NCBI GenBank assembly: GCA_015066595.1
Contig: SVNZ01000002.1
Span: 186,001-250,000 of the forward strand
Direction: 5' to 3'
Length of the DNA stretch: 64,000 nucleotides
Origin: Oscillospiraceae bacterium
Lineage (GTDB): Bacteria > Bacillota > Clostridia > Oscillospirales > Acutalibacteraceae
Shown: positions 9,609 through 44,565 of the stretch, piece by piece
Layout of the letters: the number at the start of each line of letters is the position of its first letter
Position numbering within the stretch: position 1 is the stretch's first letter
Made by a program: the position numbers and the translations under genes
Notes under the pieces: model-generated
Told to the model about the DNA's origin: nothing
Databases searched by the model: none
Seen by the model: the letters and a program-made list of their open reading frames with translations, nothing else

Positions 9609-10609
9609 AAAAACGCACTTTAATCAACACATTTTTGATAACACTGTCTGTCACGTTGCTTTGTGTGCTTTTTATTATGGGTGTTGAATATATCACTACA
9701 AAAATCATCACTCACGCATGGGTATATGTCTGTGTCACACTTATCATTCCTGTTGTTGTTACTGCGTTTGTACTACGTGCGGTCACTGTGAACATCATCG
9801 ACCCTATCAACAACATTGATATTGAAAATCCTGATACTTCTGATTTATTCTCAGAGTTTTCTCCACTTGTTCAAAAAATCAGTTCACAGAACAATCGTAT
9901 TTTGCAACAGATGGACGAACTCAAATTTGAGCACCAAAATCGTGACAAGCTCCGCAGAGAGTTCACTGCAAATGTTTCTCACGAGCTCAAAACCCCTCTC
10001 ACGTCAATTTCCGGCTATGCCGAAATCATCCGTGATGGTATCGCAAAGCCTGAGGATACCACTCGTTTTGCGGGCAAAATCTACGACGAGTCCCAGCGAC
10101 TCATCACTTTAGTTCAAGATATCATAAAGCTATCCAGACTCGAAGAAAGCGATATCGAAATAAACACAGAAAACATCGACCTGTATTCGCTGTGCGAAAC
10201 TGTTATCTCCCGACTCGAAACACTGGCTAATAAACGTAACATCACTTTCAGTCTTTCGGGCGACAGATGTATAATAAGCGGTGTGCATCGTATTATCGAA
10301 GAAATGATATACAACCTGTGCGACAACGCTGTGAAATACAACAAAGAAAATGGTACGGTAACTCTATCTATCCGTCAGTTTGTTGATGGTGTTGAGCTCT
10401 GTGTTTCTGATACAGGCATCGGTATAGAGCAAAGCGATATCGGTCGAATTTTCGAACGTTTCTATAGAGTGAACAAAAGCCACTCCAAAGAAATCGGCGG
10501 AACAGGACTCGGACTTTCTATCGTCAAACACGGTGCGCTGTATCACAACGCATCTATCTCTGTTGAAAGCGAACTAAACAAAGGTACTACCATCAAAATT
10601 TTATTTTAG
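9605..10609 (+). CDS. PhoR-like membrane histidine kinase
   Basis: The 334-residue kinase has two membrane helices (about 8-30 and 38-60) with almost no extracellular loop. It then has the HisKA box (VSHELKTPLTSISG, His near 127) and a HATPase domain with N box (DNAVKYN), G1 (DTGIGI) and G2 (GGTGLGLSI). It should phosphorylate the regulator encoded just upstream. The missing extracellular sensor suggests it reads a membrane partner, as PhoR does through the Pst system, but no pst genes are in the window. Confidence 0.9.
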   Translation: MKKRTLINTFLITLSVTLLCVLFIMGVEYITTKIITHAWVYVCVTLIIPVVVTAFVLRAVTVNIIDPINNIDIENPDTSDLFSEFSPLVQKISSQNNRILQQMDELKFEHQNRDKLRREFTANVSHELKTPLTSISGYAEIIRDGIAKPEDTTRFAGKIYDESQRLITLVQDIIKLSRLEESDIEINTENIDLYSLCETVISRLETLANKRNITFSLSGDRCIISGVHRIIEEMIYNLCDNAVKYNKENGTVTLSIRQFVDGVELCVSDTGIGIEQSDIGRIFERFYRVNKSHSKEIGGTGLGLSIVKHGALYHNASISVESELNKGTTIKILF

Positions 10610-10611
10610 TA

Positions 10612-10640
10612 TTGACAACACAGCATTTTAGGTGTATATT
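10612..10640 (+). promoter_or_regulatory. Promoter of the DAHP synthase-tyrA operon
   Basis: TTGACA (10612-10617) and TATATT (10635-10640) are separated by 17 bp. Transcription should start near 10647, about 24 nt before the leader-peptide ATG and nearly 180 nt before the first enzyme gene. Confidence 0.75.
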
Positions 10641-10670
10641 TGATTTAACGCTTTAAATGGGTGAAACATT

Positions 10671-10757
10671 ATGAAACACTTTAACCACTCAGCTAAATAC
10701 TATTATTACTTTTACTATAACAAAATAGTAGAAGAGTTTTTTGCTGCAAGTCTTTAG
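10671..10757 (+). CDS. Tyr/Phe-rich leader peptide for transcription attenuation
   Basis: A 28-codon reading frame starts at ATG with a weak GGGTGAA site. It contains an uninterrupted run of seven aromatic codons (YYYYFYY, residues 10-16), another Phe at 4 and a Phe pair at 23-24. It ends at TAG, 23 bases before a rho-independent terminator. The tail of the frame (about 10738-10748) can pair, with G-U pairs and one mismatch, with the 5' arm of that terminator. This is the arrangement of a ribosome-stalling attenuator: scarce charged tRNA-Tyr or tRNA-Phe would stall the ribosome and allow readthrough. Confidence 0.75.
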   Translation: MKHFNHSAKYYYYFYYNKIVEEFFAASL

Positions 10758-10780
10758 GTGTTTTCCTATATAAACTACAC

Positions 10781-10813
10781 GGGTTCGCAGTGAATTGCGG
10801 ACCCTTTTCTTTT
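10781..10813 (+). terminator. Attenuator terminator ahead of DAHP synthase
   Basis: The stem GGGTTCGCA/TGCGGACCC (one G-U pair) has a six-base loop and is followed by TTTTCTTTT. It lies between the leader peptide and the GGAGGT ribosome site of the first enzyme gene. Confidence 0.85.
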
Positions 10814-10824
10814 GGAGGTATTTT

Positions 10825-11826
10825 ATGATTGCTATTATCAAACAAGGTGTACAAAAAAATCAAATCGATACTCTGGTACAATGGCTTGAAAATCAAAACC
10901 TGACTGTTCATATCTCAAACGGTGAATTCACAACTATCTTAGGTTTAGTCGGAGATACAACAAAAATCGATATCGAGCTACTCGAAAACCTCGACATAGT
11001 CGAAAAAGTAAAACGCATTTCCGAACCATACAAAAGCGCAAACAGAAAGTTTCATCCACAGGACAGTATTATTGATGTCGGCGGTGTAAAAATCGGTGGC
11101 GGTAACTTTGCTGTTATCGCAGGGCCTTGCTCGGTTGAATCGGAAGAACAAATAGTTGAAATTGCTAAAAAAGTGAAAGAAAGCGGTGCAACTCTGCTTA
11201 GGGGCGGAGCATTCAAGCCACGCACCTCTCCGTATGATTTTCAAGGTCTGAAAGCTGATGGGCTTGAGCTACTTAAAATCGCAAAGCAAGAGACCGGTAT
11301 GCCTATAGTCACTGAGATTATGAACGCAAATCATCTCGAACTTTTTGATGATGTTGACCTCATTCAAGTAGGCGCAAGAAATATGCAGAACTTCGATTTG
11401 CTCAAAGAGCTCGGAAAAACAAAAAAGCCTATTCTTTTAAAAAGAGGACTTGCCAACACAATGAAAGAATGGCTGATGAGTGCCGAGTACATAATGTCAG
11501 GCGGTAACGAAAACATCATTTTGTGTGAACGTGGTATAAGAACGTTTGAAACATACACACGAAACACCCTTGACCTGTCAGCTGTGCCTATGCTCAAAGA
11601 GCTCTCTCATCTTCCCGTTATTGTTGACCCAAGCCACGCAACAGGTATCAGTCGTATGGTAAAGCCTATGGCTCTTGCCGCTACAGCTTGCGGTACAGAC
11701 GGATTGATGATAGAAGTTCACAACAACCCTCAAAAGGCATTATGCGATGGTGCACAGTCACTCACTCCTGACGAGTTTTCTGATGTTATGAACAGTGTTT
11801 CAAAAATCGTGGAGGTTATGAAGTAA
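10825..11826 (+). CDS. aroF: 3-deoxy-7-phosphoheptulonate (DAHP) synthase
   Basis: The start is the ATG behind GGAGGT. The 333-residue enzyme has an N-terminal ferredoxin-like regulatory domain (residues 1-65), as in the Thermotoga-type class I beta enzyme, followed by the TIM barrel. The barrel carries [28 protein letters not shown] and a late DPSHATG metal/substrate motif. It condenses phosphoenolpyruvate with erythrose-4-phosphate, the first step to chorismate. The N-terminal domain in relatives mediates Tyr/Phe feedback. It overlaps tyrA by one base (TAATG). Confidence 0.93.
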
Positions 11827-12659
11827 TGGTTATTGGTATAGTAGGTCTGGGACTTATCGGTGGTTCATTGTGCAAAGCTATAAAACAGAATACCGCCCAT
11901 ACAGTATATGGATTCGACCTTGATGACAACATCAACTCTTACGCTTTGCTCGACGGTGGTATAGACAAAAAGCTTTGTGACAGCAACATCGGTGAATGTG
12001 ACTACATTTTGCTGTCAATATATCCGAAAGCAACAGTTGCTTTTCTGAAAGAAAAGGCAGAGCTCATAGGAAAGAGCACTACTGTCATCGACTGTGGTGG
12101 TATAAAGCGTTCTATTTGTGAAAACTGTTTTGAGCTTGCGAATGAATATGGTTTTTCTTTCATAGGCGGACACCCTATGGCAGGTCTGCATTTTTCGGGA
12201 TATAAATATGCAAAGGACGATTTGTTCTGTGGCGCTTCTATGATACTCACTCCACAAAATACTGACGATATAGCTCAGCTTCAAAAAGTCAGCGCATTTA
12301 TAAAGTCACTGGGTTTTTCATCAGTGACCGTCACAACCCCAGATGAACATGACAAAATCATCGCTTTTACATCACAGCTTGCGCATGTTGTGTCAAACGC
12401 CTACGTAAAAAGTCCACAAGCAAAAATCCACAAAGGCTTTTCCGCAGGCAGTTACAAAGACTTAACTAGAGTTGCACGACTCAATGAAAATATGTGGGCA
12501 GAGCTTTTTATGGAAAACAAGGACAATCTGCTTTTCGAAATCGATCATATTATCAACGCATTATCGCAGTACAAAGAGGCTCTTAAAAACGAAGACACTG
12601 CTTCTTTGAAACTACTTCTAAAAGAAGGTAGCGACCGCAAAGCTATGATAGACAATTAA
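11826..12659 (+). CDS. tyrA: Prephenate dehydrogenase
   Basis: The 277-residue protein has an N-terminal Rossmann motif (GLGLIGGSL, residues 6-14). It continues with GGHPMAGLHFSGY near 115 (the catalytic histidine region) and a helical C-terminal dimer domain with SQLAHVVSNAY near 183. It oxidises and decarboxylates prephenate to 4-hydroxyphenylpyruvate, committing carbon to tyrosine. There is no ACT or chorismate mutase domain. Co-transcription with DAHP synthase explains a tyrosine-sensing leader upstream. Confidence 0.93.
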   Translation: MVIGIVGLGLIGGSLCKAIKQNTAHTVYGFDLDDNINSYALLDGGIDKKLCDSNIGECDYILLSIYPKATVAFLKEKAELIGKSTTVIDCGGIKRSICENCFELANEYGFSFIGGHPMAGLHFSGYKYAKDDLFCGASMILTPQNTDDIAQLQKVSAFIKSLGFSSVTVTTPDEHDKIIAFTSQLAHVVSNAYVKSPQAKIHKGFSAGSYKDLTRVARLNENMWAELFMENKDNLLFEIDHIINALSQYKEALKNEDTASLKLLLKEGSDRKAMIDN

Positions 12660-12674
12660 CTTTAAAAATTTTTT

Positions 12675-12706
12675 AAGCAGGCACGTTTTTTGTGCCTGCT
12701 TTTTTG
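12675..12706 (+). terminator. Terminator after tyrA
   Basis: A perfect ten-base stem AAGCAGGCAC/GTGCCTGCTT is followed by a T-run, 15 bp after the tyrA stop. Confidence 0.9.
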
Positions 12707-12733
12707 CAGAAAAACTTACAATATTCTACTGAT

Positions 12734-12787
12734 TTAACATAGATTTAACATTGCGCACTCTTTTATTTAACATACAGTTGCCATAAT
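12734..12787 (+). promoter_or_regulatory. Pho-box-like TTAACA array and promoter for the phosphate cotransporter
   Basis: Exact TTAACA copies start at 12734, 12745 and 12767. They lie on an 11-bp register with one degenerate position at 12756. The likely -10 is CATAAT at 12782-12787 and the -35 is poor, as expected for an activated promoter. Bacillus PhoP binds TTAACA-like direct repeats spaced 4-6 bp apart at roughly -60 to -22, and this array fits that layout. Confidence 0.65.
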
Positions 12788-12844
12788 GAATGTATTGGTT
12801 ACAAAATTTTAACTTTTTACTTCTAATGAGGGGTAGGCGAAATT

Positions 12845-14608
12845 ATGTCAATAATCAATATCATTATGCTGTTCGGCGGACTTGCATTCTTCTTGTATGG
12901 TATGAACGTTATGTCTTCCGGACTCGAAAAAATGGCAGGCGGTAAGCTTGAGTCAGCTCTGTCCAAAATGACAGACAACCTCTTCAAGAGTATGTTGCTT
13001 GGTGCGGGTATCACTATCGCTATCCAGTCTTCTTCAGCGCTGACTGTTATGCTCGTTGGCCTTGTCAACTCCGGTATTATGCATTTTGGCAAAACCATCG
13101 GTGTTATCATGGGTTCCAACATCGGTACCACTCTCACCGCATGGATCACATCTCTTGCAGGTATCGAAAGTGACAACATCTGGATGAGCCTTTTAAAACC
13201 TGCAAACTTCTCACTTGTCTTTGCTTTTGTTGGCATTATTATGATCATGCTGTCAAAACAGCAGAAGAAAAAAGACATCGGTGCTATCCTCATTGGATTT
13301 GCTGTACTTATGGCTGGTATGGGACTTATGGGCGATGCTATGGAACCACTTTCTGAAATGCCTGAATTCCAGGAAATACTCGTGGCATTCAACAACCCTA
13401 TTTTAGGTGTGCTTGTTGGTGCAGCTTTCACAGGTATTATCCAGAGCTCTGCTGCATCTGTTGCTATACTCCAATCATTTGCCATGGCAGGCGGACTATC
13501 CTACGGTATGGCTATCCCTATCATTATGGGTCAGAACATCGGTACTTGTGTTACAGCACTTATCTCTTCAATCGGCGTTTCTAAAAACGCTAAGAAGGTT
13601 GCTGTTGTACACATTTCCTTCAACATCATCGGTACAATCATCTGTCTTGTGCTGTTCTATATAGCAAACTCTATATTCAACTTCGCTTTTGTCAACAGTG
13701 ACATTGACACCTTTGGCATCGCAATGGTGCACACTATCTTTAACATTGCAACATCTCTTATGCTGTGCCCATTCTGCAAACAGCTTGAAAAGCTTGCTAA
13801 CTTCCTTATCAAGGTTGAACCTACTGAGAAAGAAAAGACTCTCGGCGTACTCGACGACAGACTTCTCACTATGCCTGCATTTGCTATCTCAAAGTGCACA
13901 GCTATCACTATCGAAATGGCACAGCTCGCAAACGATAACATCAACCGTGCTATCTCGCTGATGAAACACTACGACCCTAAAGTAGTCGAAAAAATAAACG
14001 CTACAGAAGAGCTCATCGACGGTTATGAGGACAAGCTAGGCAACTATCTCATCAAGCTCTCCAACGCAAACCTCACCGAAGACGAGAACTGGCAGGTCAC
14101 AAAGCTGCTCCACACTATCGGTGACTTTGAGCGTATCGGCGACCACGCTATCAACCTGCTCGACACAGCACAGGAGCTTCACGACAAGAACATCTCGTTC
14201 TCTGCTGAGACAACTCGTGAAATCGATGTCATCACAGAAGCTCTCACAGAGATTTTGTACCTGACTACAGAAGCTTTCTCCGAAGGCGATATCGAACGTG
14301 CAAAGCTTGTTGAGCCACTCGAAGAAGTTATCGACGAGCTCGTGCTCCAAGCTCGTGCTAAGCATACAAAACGTATCCAAAGAGGCAACAGCCCTATGGT
14401 GCTCGGTTTTATCTTAACCGACCTGCTTACAAACTACGAGCGAGTTTCTGACCACTGCTCAAATGTTGCAGTAGTCCTCATCGAAATCGACTCAAAGCAG
14501 CTTGGTACTCACCAGTATCTTGACCGTCTCAAGAGTGCTGATAACGTAGCTTTCGCTGACACTTACAACGAATATTTGAGCCGCTACCAAATCCACACTG
14601 AAGTTTAA
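12845..14608 (+). CDS. Na+/phosphate cotransporter with PhoU-like tail
   Basis: The 587-residue protein has two inverted Na_Pi_cotrans repeats marked by QSSSALTVML (near 59) and QSSAASVAIL (near 200), about eight to nine membrane helices, and a cytoplasmic PhoU-like helical domain (about 350-560). It should couple phosphate uptake or homeostasis to sodium. The TTAACA array upstream and a PhoB/PhoR-type pair 2.2 kb away suggest phosphate-starvation control. The ribosome site GAGGGG precedes the ATG. Confidence 0.92.
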   Translation: MSIINIIMLFGGLAFFLYGMNVMSSGLEKMAGGKLESALSKMTDNLFKSMLLGAGITIAIQSSSALTVMLVGLVNSGIMHFGKTIGVIMGSNIGTTLTAWITSLAGIESDNIWMSLLKPANFSLVFAFVGIIMIMLSKQQKKKDIGAILIGFAVLMAGMGLMGDAMEPLSEMPEFQEILVAFNNPILGVLVGAAFTGIIQSSAASVAILQSFAMAGGLSYGMAIPIIMGQNIGTCVTALISSIGVSKNAKKVAVVHISFNIIGTIICLVLFYIANSIFNFAFVNSDIDTFGIAMVHTIFNIATSLMLCPFCKQLEKLANFLIKVEPTEKEKTLGVLDDRLLTMPAFAISKCTAITIEMAQLANDNINRAISLMKHYDPKVVEKINATEELIDGYEDKLGNYLIKLSNANLTEDENWQVTKLLHTIGDFERIGDHAINLLDTAQELHDKNISFSAETTREIDVITEALTEILYLTTEAFSEGDIERAKLVEPLEEVIDELVLQARAKHTKRIQRGNSPMVLGFILTDLLTNYERVSDHCSNVAVVLIEIDSKQLGTHQYLDRLKSADNVAFADTYNEYLSRYQIHTEV

Positions 14609-24030: not shown

Positions 24031-25587
24031 TTAGTCTTCGTAGCTCATAACCTCTTCTGCTACTTCAGGATAAGCCGAGAGCATCGGTCTGACGTCTTTG
24101 CCTTTGATTTTACGATCGATGTAATTCTTTGTGATTTTTACAACCAAGCCTGAAAGTGTGATAACACCGATAAGGTTAGGAATCATCATTAGACCGTTGA
24201 AAGTATCGGAGATATCCCAAGCGATAGATGATGTCATCATAGCGCCTGACATAATCATCAGTACGAAGATAATCTTGTACACAACAGTAGCCTTTGTACC
24301 AAAGAGGAACTCAAATGCTTTTGTGCCATAGTGTGACCAACCAAGTACTGTTGTAAATGCAAACAAGAAGATAGCCACAGCAATGAACATTGAGCCTACA
24401 TTAACAGAGCCGAATGTGAACACGGTGTCAAACGCAGATGCTACGAGTGTAGCTTCACTACCTGCACCTTGTGCAACTGTACCTGTAGCAAGGTCATAAA
24501 CGCCTGATGTAAGAATAACAAGAGCTGTCATAGTACATACAACGATAGTATCAACAAACACCTCGAAGATACCCCACATACCCTGCTGAACAGGCTCTTT
24601 AACCTTTGAGTTAGAGTGAACCATAACAGAAGAACCAAGACCGGCTTCGTTAGAGAACACGCCACGCTTGAAGCCCTGTGTGATAACAACACTGACAAGA
24701 TAGCCAAATGTACCACCTGCTGCTGCAACAGGCTTGAACGCTGTCTTGAAGATAGAAACAAAAGCAGCACCTACTGAGTCAATGTTCACGCCGATAATAA
24801 CAATTGAGCCAAGTACAAACAAAACTACCATAAAAGGTACGATTTTCTCGGCAACAGCGCCGATACGCTTAACACCACCTAATACGATAAGAGCTACAAG
24901 CACAAGGATAACTACGCCGATGATTACAGAATACAGCGATACAGCAGCATCACCCTCACCGTAGAGCACGATATTTGACAGGGCATCAATCTTGAACGCT
25001 GACTGAACATTAGCAACGATTTTGTTGACCTGACCCATGTTACCTATACCAAATGATGCAAGCAACGCAAAGCACGCAAAAAGCACAGCAAGTGTGTTTC
25101 CTATCCATTTGCATCCCTTTTTCTTGCCAAGACCATCTCGAAGATAGTACATAGCACCACCACTCCACTCGCCCTGTGGGTTCTTACGTCTGTAGAAGAT
25201 ACCAAGAACGTTTTCAGAGAAGTTTGTCATCATACCAAAGAAAGCAGCGATCCACATCCAGAACACCGCACCTGCACCACCTGTAGCAATAGCAGATGCA
25301 ACACCTGCGATATTACCAACACCGACTGTAGCAGCTAGTGCTGTACACATGGACTGGAACTGCGAAATAGATTTGTCTTTCTTTTCTGTGTGACCGGAAA
25401 TGCTTTTCTTAAACACACTACCGATAGTCTGTTTAAACCAATGACCAATGTGTGTTACCTGAAAAAACTTTGTAAGCACTGTCATCAAAATACCTGTACC
25501 AACAAGCAGCACAAGACCGAATGTACCCCAAACAAAACCGTTTACGACATTGTTTGCGGCGGTGAGATTCTCAAAAAATTTCTCCAT
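24031..25587 (-). CDS. Sodium:alanine/glycine symporter (AGCS family)
   Basis: The start is the ATG after GGGGTAT; an upstream in-frame start lies in the riboswitch expression platform. The 518-residue protein has about ten to eleven membrane helices and AGCS signatures (VGNIAGVASAIATGGAGAVFWMW is the conserved stretch near 88-110; GGAMYYLRDG near 143; FSNEAGLGSS near 302). It imports alanine or glycine with sodium. The glycine riboswitch in its leader favours glycine as a physiological substrate. Confidence 0.92.
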   Translation of the reverse strand: MEKFFENLTAANNVVNGFVWGTFGLVLLVGTGILMTVLTKFFQVTHIGHWFKQTIGSVFKKSISGHTEKKDKSISQFQSMCTALAATVGVGNIAGVASAIATGGAGAVFWMWIAAFFGMMTNFSENVLGIFYRRKNPQGEWSGGAMYYLRDGLGKKKGCKWIGNTLAVLFACFALLASFGIGNMGQVNKIVANVQSAFKIDALSNIVLYGEGDAAVSLYSVIIGVVILVLVALIVLGGVKRIGAVAEKIVPFMVVLFVLGSIVIIGVNIDSVGAAFVSIFKTAFKPVAAAGGTFGYLVSVVITQGFKRGVFSNEAGLGSSVMVHSNSKVKEPVQQGMWGIFEVFVDTIVVCTMTALVILTSGVYDLATGTVAQGAGSEATLVASAFDTVFTFGSVNVGSMFIAVAIFLFAFTTVLGWSHYGTKAFEFLFGTKATVVYKIIFVLMIMSGAMMTSSIAWDISDTFNGLMMIPNLIGVITLSGLVVKITKNYIDRKIKGKDVRPMLSAYPEVAEEVMSYED

Positions 25588-25629
25588 AATTATACCCCTT
25601 TCAATACTAAAATCCGACAACTTTGCAAC

Positions 25630-25693: not shown

Positions 25694-25850
25694 GAAATCC
25701 GTCCTTTTGCCTGAGAGATTAAGCCACAGCCTTTGCACCTTCGGCATTCTGATAATCAGAACTTCTCCGGAATTTCCGTCCACCAACAGTCCTCGACAGA
25801 TGTCACCTGAGAGTATTACTCCTTCGGAAAGAGCCGACGCTCTAATTTCC
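25694..25850 (-). ncRNA. Tandem glycine riboswitch
   Basis: Read on the minus strand, two aptamers follow one another. The first has CCGAAGGAGTAA and CTCTCAGGTGACA with GGACTG. The second has GCCGAAGGTGCAA and CTCTCAGGCAAAAGGACGG. These are the conserved gcvT-motif words, twice. The promoter would lie above 25850. Whether glycine switches expression on or off cannot be read from sequence; transporter-linked glycine switches are often off-switches. The 515-bp gap to the next gene holds only this leader and the opposite promoter. Confidence 0.93.
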
Positions 25851-26043
25851 TGTTGGCTTCATACGGACATATAAAGTTATCAAATTTACTAGCATATCAT
25901 ATAATGAAACTCTATAAAAATCAAGGCTATTTCGGCATAATAGTCTTTTTGACTAAAAGAGTGTTGCACTCTTGTATTATGTATGTGCTATTTTATGACT
26001 TTAGCACACAAAAGCAGGAGCTAAAGCGTGAATTTGCACCGAT

Positions 26044-40463: not shown

Positions 40464-40598
40464 AAGAAGACCTCCATTTTAGTTACTATGTATTACCATA
40501 GGTTCCTGTAAAATGGAAGTCTTTTTTGCTTATATGTCATACGGAAAGAGTAATCGTTTCGGTTTGTCCTACCAATCGTTGTGGTTGTCGTTTGTATT

Positions 40599-44263: not shown

Positions 44264-44565
44264 TTGCAAAAAATAACGCCCTCGACAGTATTGCTACTGT
44301 CAAGGACGAATAAAACTTATCCGCGGTGCCACCTTGATTCACCAAATCGGTGCGCTTTACAGGATACTGACATATCCGTGACAACTGACGTATGCCCCAC
44401 GTTGCAGAATACTCTGCGAGTTTTCAGAAAAAACGTCGCATTTGACTGCACCCTCAGCGGTCCATTTGACAACCTGTATCTTACCCGACTTTCAGCACCA
44501 CGGGCTCTCTGTAAAGGCATTTGCTGTCTTTATCTCCGCGTCAACGGTTTGAAAACTTAATTTAT
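44264..44565 (-). ncRNA. T-box riboswitch, specifier UGG (tryptophan)
   Basis: On the minus strand the conserved T-box word AAGGTGGCACCGCGG is followed by a terminator (CGTCCTTGACAGTA/TACTGTCGAGGGCG, then TTATTTTTT). Upstream, stem I has GCGGAGATAA opposite AAATGGACCGC, which places the codon UGG followed by A in the specifier loop, and an AGAGAGCCC element. UGG reads tryptophan. Uncharged tRNA-Trp should stabilise the antiterminator and allow transcription. Confidence 0.9.

Follow-up and report, generated by a model that had tools for sequence, protein, structure and literature searches.

A leader peptide rich in Tyr and Phe codons as a probable transcription attenuator of aroF-tyrA in an Oscillospiraceae bacterium and its relatives

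The peptide-leader attenuators of enterobacteria include those of pheA, pheST, trp, and his, and T-boxes are the amino-acid sensors usually described for Firmicutes. The leader described here lies in a window (the whole stretch of DNA analyzed, 64,000 nucleotides) of an Oscillospiraceae genome. It resembles the enterobacterial attenuators in its leader open reading frame (ORF) with regulatory codons, its 1:2, 2:3, and 3:4 pairings, its intrinsic terminator, and its biosynthetic operon, but differs in that its regulatory codons mix Tyr with Phe and precede aroF-tyrA, in a genome of the Clostridia type. The general mechanism of peptide-leader attenuation is described in PMC9413887, which also places his-leader attenuators in the Bacillus cereus group, Eubacteriales, and Erysipelotrichales; hisS and hisZ peptide leaders are described in bacilli (PMC2965389), and an ilv-leu attenuator peptide of S. 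aureus is supported by mutants (PMC5794164). As these sources present them, the Firmicute his leaders are peptide attenuators replacing T-boxes, like the one in the window, although their codons and genes concern histidine, and the S. aureus case is likewise Firmicute peptide attenuation, but with Leu and Ile codons and a branched-chain operon. The initial annotation had called a tyrosine version of such a leader unexpected in a phylum that mostly uses T-boxes for aromatic genes. The contrast is real, as T-boxes occur elsewhere in the source genome, but peptide attenuators in Firmicutes are not new.

The closest described systems involve the same or related genes. Attenuation has been hypothesized for E. 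coli aroF-tyrA (cited in PMC8632094), and Shewanella aroF is listed as "attenuator sensing tyr-tRNA" (PMC2659441). Compared by description only, these Proteobacterial cases share with the window the gene and Tyr-tRNA as the proposed signal, but belong to another phylum. The uORFC-13-1 motif upstream of aroF is described in PMC8632094 from Acholeplasma and environmental sequences of unknown origin only; by description, it is like the window leader in having an upstream ORF (uORF) with a promoter, at least one Phe codon, a terminator, and aroF downstream. A study of five genomes, Clostridium novyi among them, mentions two uORFs that contain Phe and Tyr and precede shikimate genes (PMC6429828, Fig. 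6b). Their Phe/Tyr content and shikimate genes are shared with the window leader, and they may belong to the same family; that description names neither their genome nor the gene behind them. A terminator and antiterminator have also been predicted before aroA(I-beta)-tyrA, e.g., in Thermus thermophilus and Thermoanaerobacter (PMC1173090, Table 7); unlike the window's leader, these attenuators from a terminator database are tabulated with no leader peptide named. Our searches of the open literature brought up no Tyr/Phe leader family before aroF-tyrA in Clostridia, which is weak evidence of absence.

The aroF-tyrA leader of the window is laid out as a promoter, a 28-codon ORF, and an intrinsic terminator followed by both genes, all on the plus strand (Table 1). 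These parts lie where the initial annotation had placed them, and aroF and tyrA are now identified by NCBIfam, tyrA with a best score of 170.8 bits, which is under the cut-off of 295 for that prephenate dehydrogenase model. The aroF gene is the sole DAHP synthase copy detected in the source genome with the query used. The promoter has 11 of 12 consensus matches and is the top-scoring of 8 promoter-like sites within 10000-13500; shuffles of that interval yield 8.5 such sites, so the promoter by itself is not significant. Transcription would start at about 10647. The terminator stem has 10 pairs (-14.6 kcal/mol), and this intrinsic terminator, together with an ORF predicted to be translated, gives the leader two defining elements of a peptide attenuator.

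Table 1. Coordinates of the aroF-tyrA leader and operon in the window
Feature	Position	Strand	Details
Promoter	10612-10640	+	-35 TTGACA 10612-10617, 17-nt spacer, -10 TATATT 10635-10640
Shine-Dalgarno-like GGGTGA of leader ORF	10659-10664	+	By sequence; ATG 6 nt downstream
Leader ORF, 28 codons	10671-10757	+	MKHFNHSAKYYYYFYYNKIVEEFFAASL; stop TAG 10755-10757; predicted translatable
1:2 hairpin	10687-10751	+	5' arm 10687-10718 with aromatic codons; 3' arm 10725-10751 hiding segment 2
Sensor, seven consecutive aromatic codons	10698-10718	+	TAC TAT TAT TAC TTT TAC TAT (YYYYFYY)
Segment 2, antiterminator 5' strand	10740-10753	+	Pairs with 10781-10794
Segment 3, common to antiterminator and terminator 5' arm	10781-10794	+	
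Intrinsic terminator	10781-10813	+	Stem 10781-10804, T-rich tail 10805-10813; TTTTCTTTT
aroF ribosome-binding site GGAGG	10814-10818	+	By sequence
aroF, 3-deoxy-7-phosphoheptulonate (DAHP) synthase	10825-11826	+	NCBIfam PRK08673, above cut-off
tyrA, prephenate dehydrogenase	11826-12659	+	Start overlaps aroF stop

We consider it very likely that this leader is a ribosome-mediated (peptide-leader) transcription attenuator. The ribosome would travel through the leader together with RNA polymerase. If charged tRNA-Tyr and tRNA-Phe are ample, the ribosome would reach the stop codon (10755) and cover segment 2, whereupon the terminator (10781-10804) would form and aroF-tyrA would be off. If either tRNA is scarce, the ribosome would stall on the aromatic codons (10698-10718) and open the 1:2 hairpin; the freed segment 2 (10740-10753) could then pair with 10781-10794 before the 3' arm of the terminator is made, and transcription would continue into aroF-tyrA. 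With no translation at all, the 1:2 hairpin would hide segment 2, and transcription would terminate.

Folding simulations in the window are consistent with this scheme. The leader region folds better than its shuffles (z = -3.55; 0 of 200 shuffles as good). Without a ribosome, the transcript up to the terminator loop forms a long 1:2 hairpin in which the aromatic codons lie opposite segment 2. When a ribosome occupies one of the seven aromatic codons, whichever it is, the free RNA downstream of it forms an antiterminator of 10740-10747 with 10787-10794 plus 10749-10753 with 10781-10785; these folds total -10.8 to -16.1 kcal/mol, and a separate upstream hairpin contributes to the stronger values. 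If the ribosome sits at the stop codon (10755), segment 2 is covered, no antiterminator forms, and the terminator appears when its 3' arm is transcribed. The footprint calculations thus bear out the initial annotation, in which stalling on the run frees segment 2 and a ribosome that reaches the stop codon covers it; its antiterminator, 10738-10748 with 10783-10793, was essentially right and is refined by folding to 10740-10753 with 10781-10794. Once the complete leader has been transcribed, the terminator is preferred in every state tried, even behind a stalled ribosome, and the choice must therefore be kinetic, made during transcription.

Some tests on the window alone are weak, and the statistical support for the attenuator comes from relatives, many of which are mutually related. 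The sample comprised 150 DAHP synthase loci, 70 from the source genome and relatives of its order (70 of 98 genomes matched; the window locus is itself among the 70 loci) and 80 from named contigs (the best 80 of 593 matches). A leader was defined as an ORF of 8 to 60 codons that lies no more than 330 nt upstream and has 5 or more Tyr/Phe among 9 residues. Such an ORF is present at 87 of the 150 loci (28/70 in the first set and 59/80 in the second), compared to 162 of 3000 dinucleotide shuffles (5.4%) and 11 of 150 antisense sequences (7%), so the aromatic codon run recurs before aroF far above chance. Examples of runs are YYYYFYY in L001-L005 and YFYYFYFF in L006, L007, and L012; L092 has MKRNIFAAEYFYFYFINKS, and Oscillibacter valericigenes (L124), from the ATG of its leader, MSTFTFAAEYRYFSFTYYFGKAYFGLAENECV. 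Cultured species that carry the leader include O. valericigenes, Angelakisella massiliensis, and Bittarella massiliensis. A hairpin of -8 kcal/mol or stronger before a T-rich tail occurs at 85 of the 87 leader loci versus 29 of the 63 others, and ends within 130 nt of aroF at 82 versus 18 of them. Some of the 87 leaders look false (L133, L143, and L153). The family-level tests below use 80 loci, i.e., the 85 hairpin-bearing leaders minus L009, L110, L112, and L139 (distance filter) and L116 (a duplicate); L133 is still within this set.

Eight places from the search of relatives fall outside the 150 loci (G089:C1, G068, G095:C44, G048, G051, G091, and weak second places in G067 and G075). Among the first three, one passes the leader threshold but looks false, and none is convincing. 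In a phylum sample, 16 of the 29 best-matching loci pass the threshold, about 13 of them convincing by eye (L226 in this sample repeats L064). Three leaders (L122, L094, and L146) lie in metagenome-assembled genomes (MAGs) labeled Treponema, Lentisphaerae, and Kiritimatiellae, perhaps as a result of mis-binned contigs or of transfer. No Rfam family, amino-acid leaders included, reached its gathering score in the window leader, where seven weaker matches were seen, or in 10 related leader loci; a model of the Tyr+Phe leader family would therefore aid annotation of the genomes that carry it. These Tyr+Phe peptide attenuators are real and widespread, ordinary in mechanism, and, as far as our searches reached, undescribed as a set.

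Ribosome masking was also simulated across the 80 loci. The mean sequestration of the terminator 5' arm is 0.69 with the ribosome on the run, 0.59 at the start, 0.53 with no ribosome, and 0.50 at the stop; in 54 loci the run value is over 0.1 higher than the stop value, and 6 loci show the opposite. For the window itself, the arm is sequestered at 0.40-0.60 with a ribosome on the run versus 0.53-0.77 on early non-aromatic codons, and also (0.61) with a ribosome on one later codon. As the scores of early codons equal or surpass those of the run, the model discriminates mainly the run from the stop codon or no ribosome, and not the run from earlier codons.

The pairings themselves appear to be under selection. 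Segment 2 pairs with segment 3 at a mean energy of -14.6 when the terminator arm is its own versus -10.9 when the arms are taken from other loci. The own arm beats the median swapped arm in 73 of 80 loci and is among the best 5% in 23; against shuffled spacers, the pairing reaches p<=0.05 in 40 of 80 loci (median p, 0.054). The swap rank of the window itself, 0.42, is unremarkable. In an alignment of the 13 loci with a UUUGUG segment 2 (A2), 95.7% of antiterminator cells are paired, and 4 of 11 pairs have changed on both sides, a count reached by 5 of 500 shuffles. Doubly changed cells number 11, compared to 2.8 in shuffles that keep relatedness (0/500 as high), and sliding the partners by 1 to 3 columns leaves only 30-55% paired. 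The terminator, built with the common arm, has 88.1% paired cells and double changes in 9 of 13 pairs. The antiterminator and terminator are thus predicted to be mutually exclusive via that arm. The 1:2 hairpin is modeled as more stable than synonymous-codon redraws (mean z, -1.65; 36 of 80 loci at p<=0.05 and 76 at p<=0.5), which suggests that it belongs to the device at the family level; for the window alone, the comparison gives a z of -1.0 and a p of 0.15. Leaders, exclusive pairings, and masking in the family, and covariation in a subgroup of it, support on computational grounds the ribosome-stalling attenuator of the initial annotation.

Both Tyr and Phe are present in 75 of the 80 runs; the aromatic-codon sensor of the initial annotation stands, but its tyrosine attenuator is better named a Tyr+Phe one. 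Among the 76 leader loci with 600 nt or more of downstream sequence, 56 have a tyrA gene that starts no more than 100 nt past aroF. Within the set of 80 loci, the mean Tyr share of the run is 0.575 where tyrA is next (n = 53) versus 0.35 otherwise (n = 16, with pheA, aroB, or an unidentified gene next), a difference with a Mann-Whitney p of 0.0003 when loci are treated as unrelated. At L023, where a pheA-like gene is next, the run is FFNGFFDF, without Tyr. With its mixture of codons for Tyr and Phe, the run should serve as an OR sensor, and such a sensor would suit this first-step enzyme, as DAHP synthase in this genome seems to supply Phe and Tyr alone. A chorismate-binding enzyme (PF00425; TrpE/PabB) was not found in the source genome, although all 14 control genomes match, and TIGR00564 was likewise not found there. 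The pheA gene lies in a separate run, aroE-aroK-aroB-aroA-aroC-pheA (gene identities by eye). No second aromatic leader with a convincing terminator was found in the rest of the window or upstream of that run. A Y/F cluster at 40581 was considered as a second leader and rejected, having only a -9.3 hairpin 82 nt downstream.

These patterns bear on what makes the ribosome stall. Like TnaC, the nascent leader could itself sense free Tyr or Phe inside the ribosome and stall, operating the same RNA switch. Such an arrest peptide would give the same RNA anatomy, and the swap, masking, and covariation tests are blind to the cause of the stall. However, outside the aromatic run the peptides vary in their residues and in run-to-stop spacing, and Tyr and Phe are freely mixed in proportions that track the next gene, which fits codons and not a fixed motif. 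We consider an arrest peptide improbable. Less probable still is a small ORF that acts by translation alone, through its general rate or through coupling to aroF, without amino-acid specificity. A uORF near a gene can act in this way, but the aromatic content is far above chance, the Tyr share tracks gene content, and a terminator with an exclusive antiterminator lies between the ORF and aroF. Chance, i.e., an AT-rich ORF with TAT and TTT codons before an ordinary constitutive terminator, is scarcely credible: the promoter count is not above that of shuffles and the window-alone pairing tests are weak, but the family-level leader, hairpin, swap, covariation, and synonymous-codon tests oppose it, and L002-L005 share the run and segments of the window.

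The attenuator may also have been adapted to another amino acid. A covariance model (R1) built from the 13 loci of the A2 subgroup was run on 295 genomes of the order and hit 91 at E<=0.01, many weakly; several of the 13 founding loci apparently come back among these matches. Thirty of its loci were examined, with 13 before DAHP synthase, 4 before TrpB-like genes, and 13 before neither; the best 13 of these 30 (E<=5.4e-6) all precede DAHP synthase or TrpB-like genes, and a stronger place in G217 lies outside the 30. R1 finds no match in the source genome (0 in G000), the window leader included. The TrpB-like genes behind L164 and L171 belong to TIGR01415. Among the leaders before TrpB-like genes, at about 1380-1660 of the oriented loci, that of L164 reads MNASNHVAFIWWRFTVSNGKVDL, and those of L168, L171, and L174 include AKYWRYF, with only one Trp, beside Tyr and Phe. 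Judged by sequence, the leaders of the TrpB-like genes (IWWRF and KYWRYF) are predicted to be the same antiterminator device with Trp codons. For a published trpB motif, a riboswitch was proposed, with classic attenuation not excluded in that description (PMC11109978).

T-boxes occur in the source genome and, in relatives, before the same enzyme. No T-box (RF00230) match was found in 10550-10900 even at E<=10, whereas the same model finds 9 elsewhere in the genome, 5 of them over the cut-off; these precede cysE-, pheS-, alaS-, thrS-, aspS-type, and other genes (downstream ORFs identified by eye). T-boxes above the Rfam cut-off do precede DAHP synthase at L068, L069, and L070, from the same order, and at L147, from a MAG labeled Erysipelotrichaceae. 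Read by alignment, with the source genome's own T-box upstream of a pheS-like gene (UUC, L073) as reference, L068, L069, and L070 carry the specifier UUC (Phe), and L147 carries UAC (Tyr). We lean slightly toward the view that the leaders form an undescribed family of peptide attenuators, spread across the lineage and taking two inputs, in which a Tyr/Phe OR gate has its mix tuned to the operon (tyrA versus pheA or aroB), is re-coded with Trp before TrpB-like genes, and swaps with single-tRNA T-boxes on the same enzyme.

The window contains a T-box of its own at 44299-44553 (minus strand), with a score of 80.3 bits, under the cut-off of 93, and a specifier read as UGG (Trp). It begins a unit at 44553-41933 (minus strand) that continues with DUF559, an ECF transporter S component, and trpB, so that trpB probably lies behind a Trp T-box. 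In a genome without a detected TrpE, this unit perhaps serves indole or tryptophan salvage. The DUF559 gene between the T-box and trpB is odd. W-rich leaders before trpE were considered and rejected, as a T-box motif occurs instead in 24 of 30 trpE loci (by regular expression); 5 of the 20 candidates put to Rfam reach the cut-off. A single 64-kb window thus places Tyr/Phe synthesis behind a peptide leader and trpB behind a probable Trp T-box. One T-box reads one tRNA, whereas a codon run could read two. The contrast raises a testable question: is a codon run favored where two amino acids need reading together?

The leader varies even among close relatives. In an alignment of the window leader with its nearest relatives, L002-L005 (A3), the window is five bases shorter past the run, and its frame bypasses their UAG stops and ends about 29 nt later. 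The ATG, the aromatic run, and the RNA segments are kept across L002-L005; the C-terminal tail is not, their stops falling just after the run. The tail, IVEEFFAASL, is probably incidental, since the run, the start codon, and the RNA segments are what is kept; it also leaves segment 2 well covered when a ribosome sits at the stop codon. In the genus of the window, leaders occur at 15 of 42 DAHP synthase loci examined, 9 of them Tyr-rich and 6 of an FSFTFSFT type, 4 of which fall just under the threshold. Among the other 27 loci of the genus, 19 are also without a hairpin.

Loss of the reading frame or its Tyr codons with terminator and genes kept, which the initial annotation had named as evidence against the attenuator, was examined by hairpin counts over the 63 sub-threshold loci, 34 of which have no hairpin of -8 or stronger. 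Among the 29 with such a hairpin, 6 are judged near-threshold leaders (L027, L039, L048, L051, L064, and L154) and 4 are T-box loci (L068-L070 and L147); in the remaining 19, the hairpin ends within 130 nt of aroF in eight (L035, L037, L052, L106, L114, L129, L142, and L148), which are the candidates for such a loss. Genome G045 has one locus of each kind, leader-bearing and leaderless. The leaderless loci L025, L026, L028, L029, and L038, from the genus of the window, have in common a promoter-like CTTTAAAGTGCTAAAAT directly upstream of aroF.

Elsewhere in the window, a tandem glycine riboswitch was observed at 25695-25862 (minus strand; 53.4 and 41.2 bits), and the ORF behind it (24031-25620) is sodium:alanine/glycine symporter-like, an identity assigned by eye.
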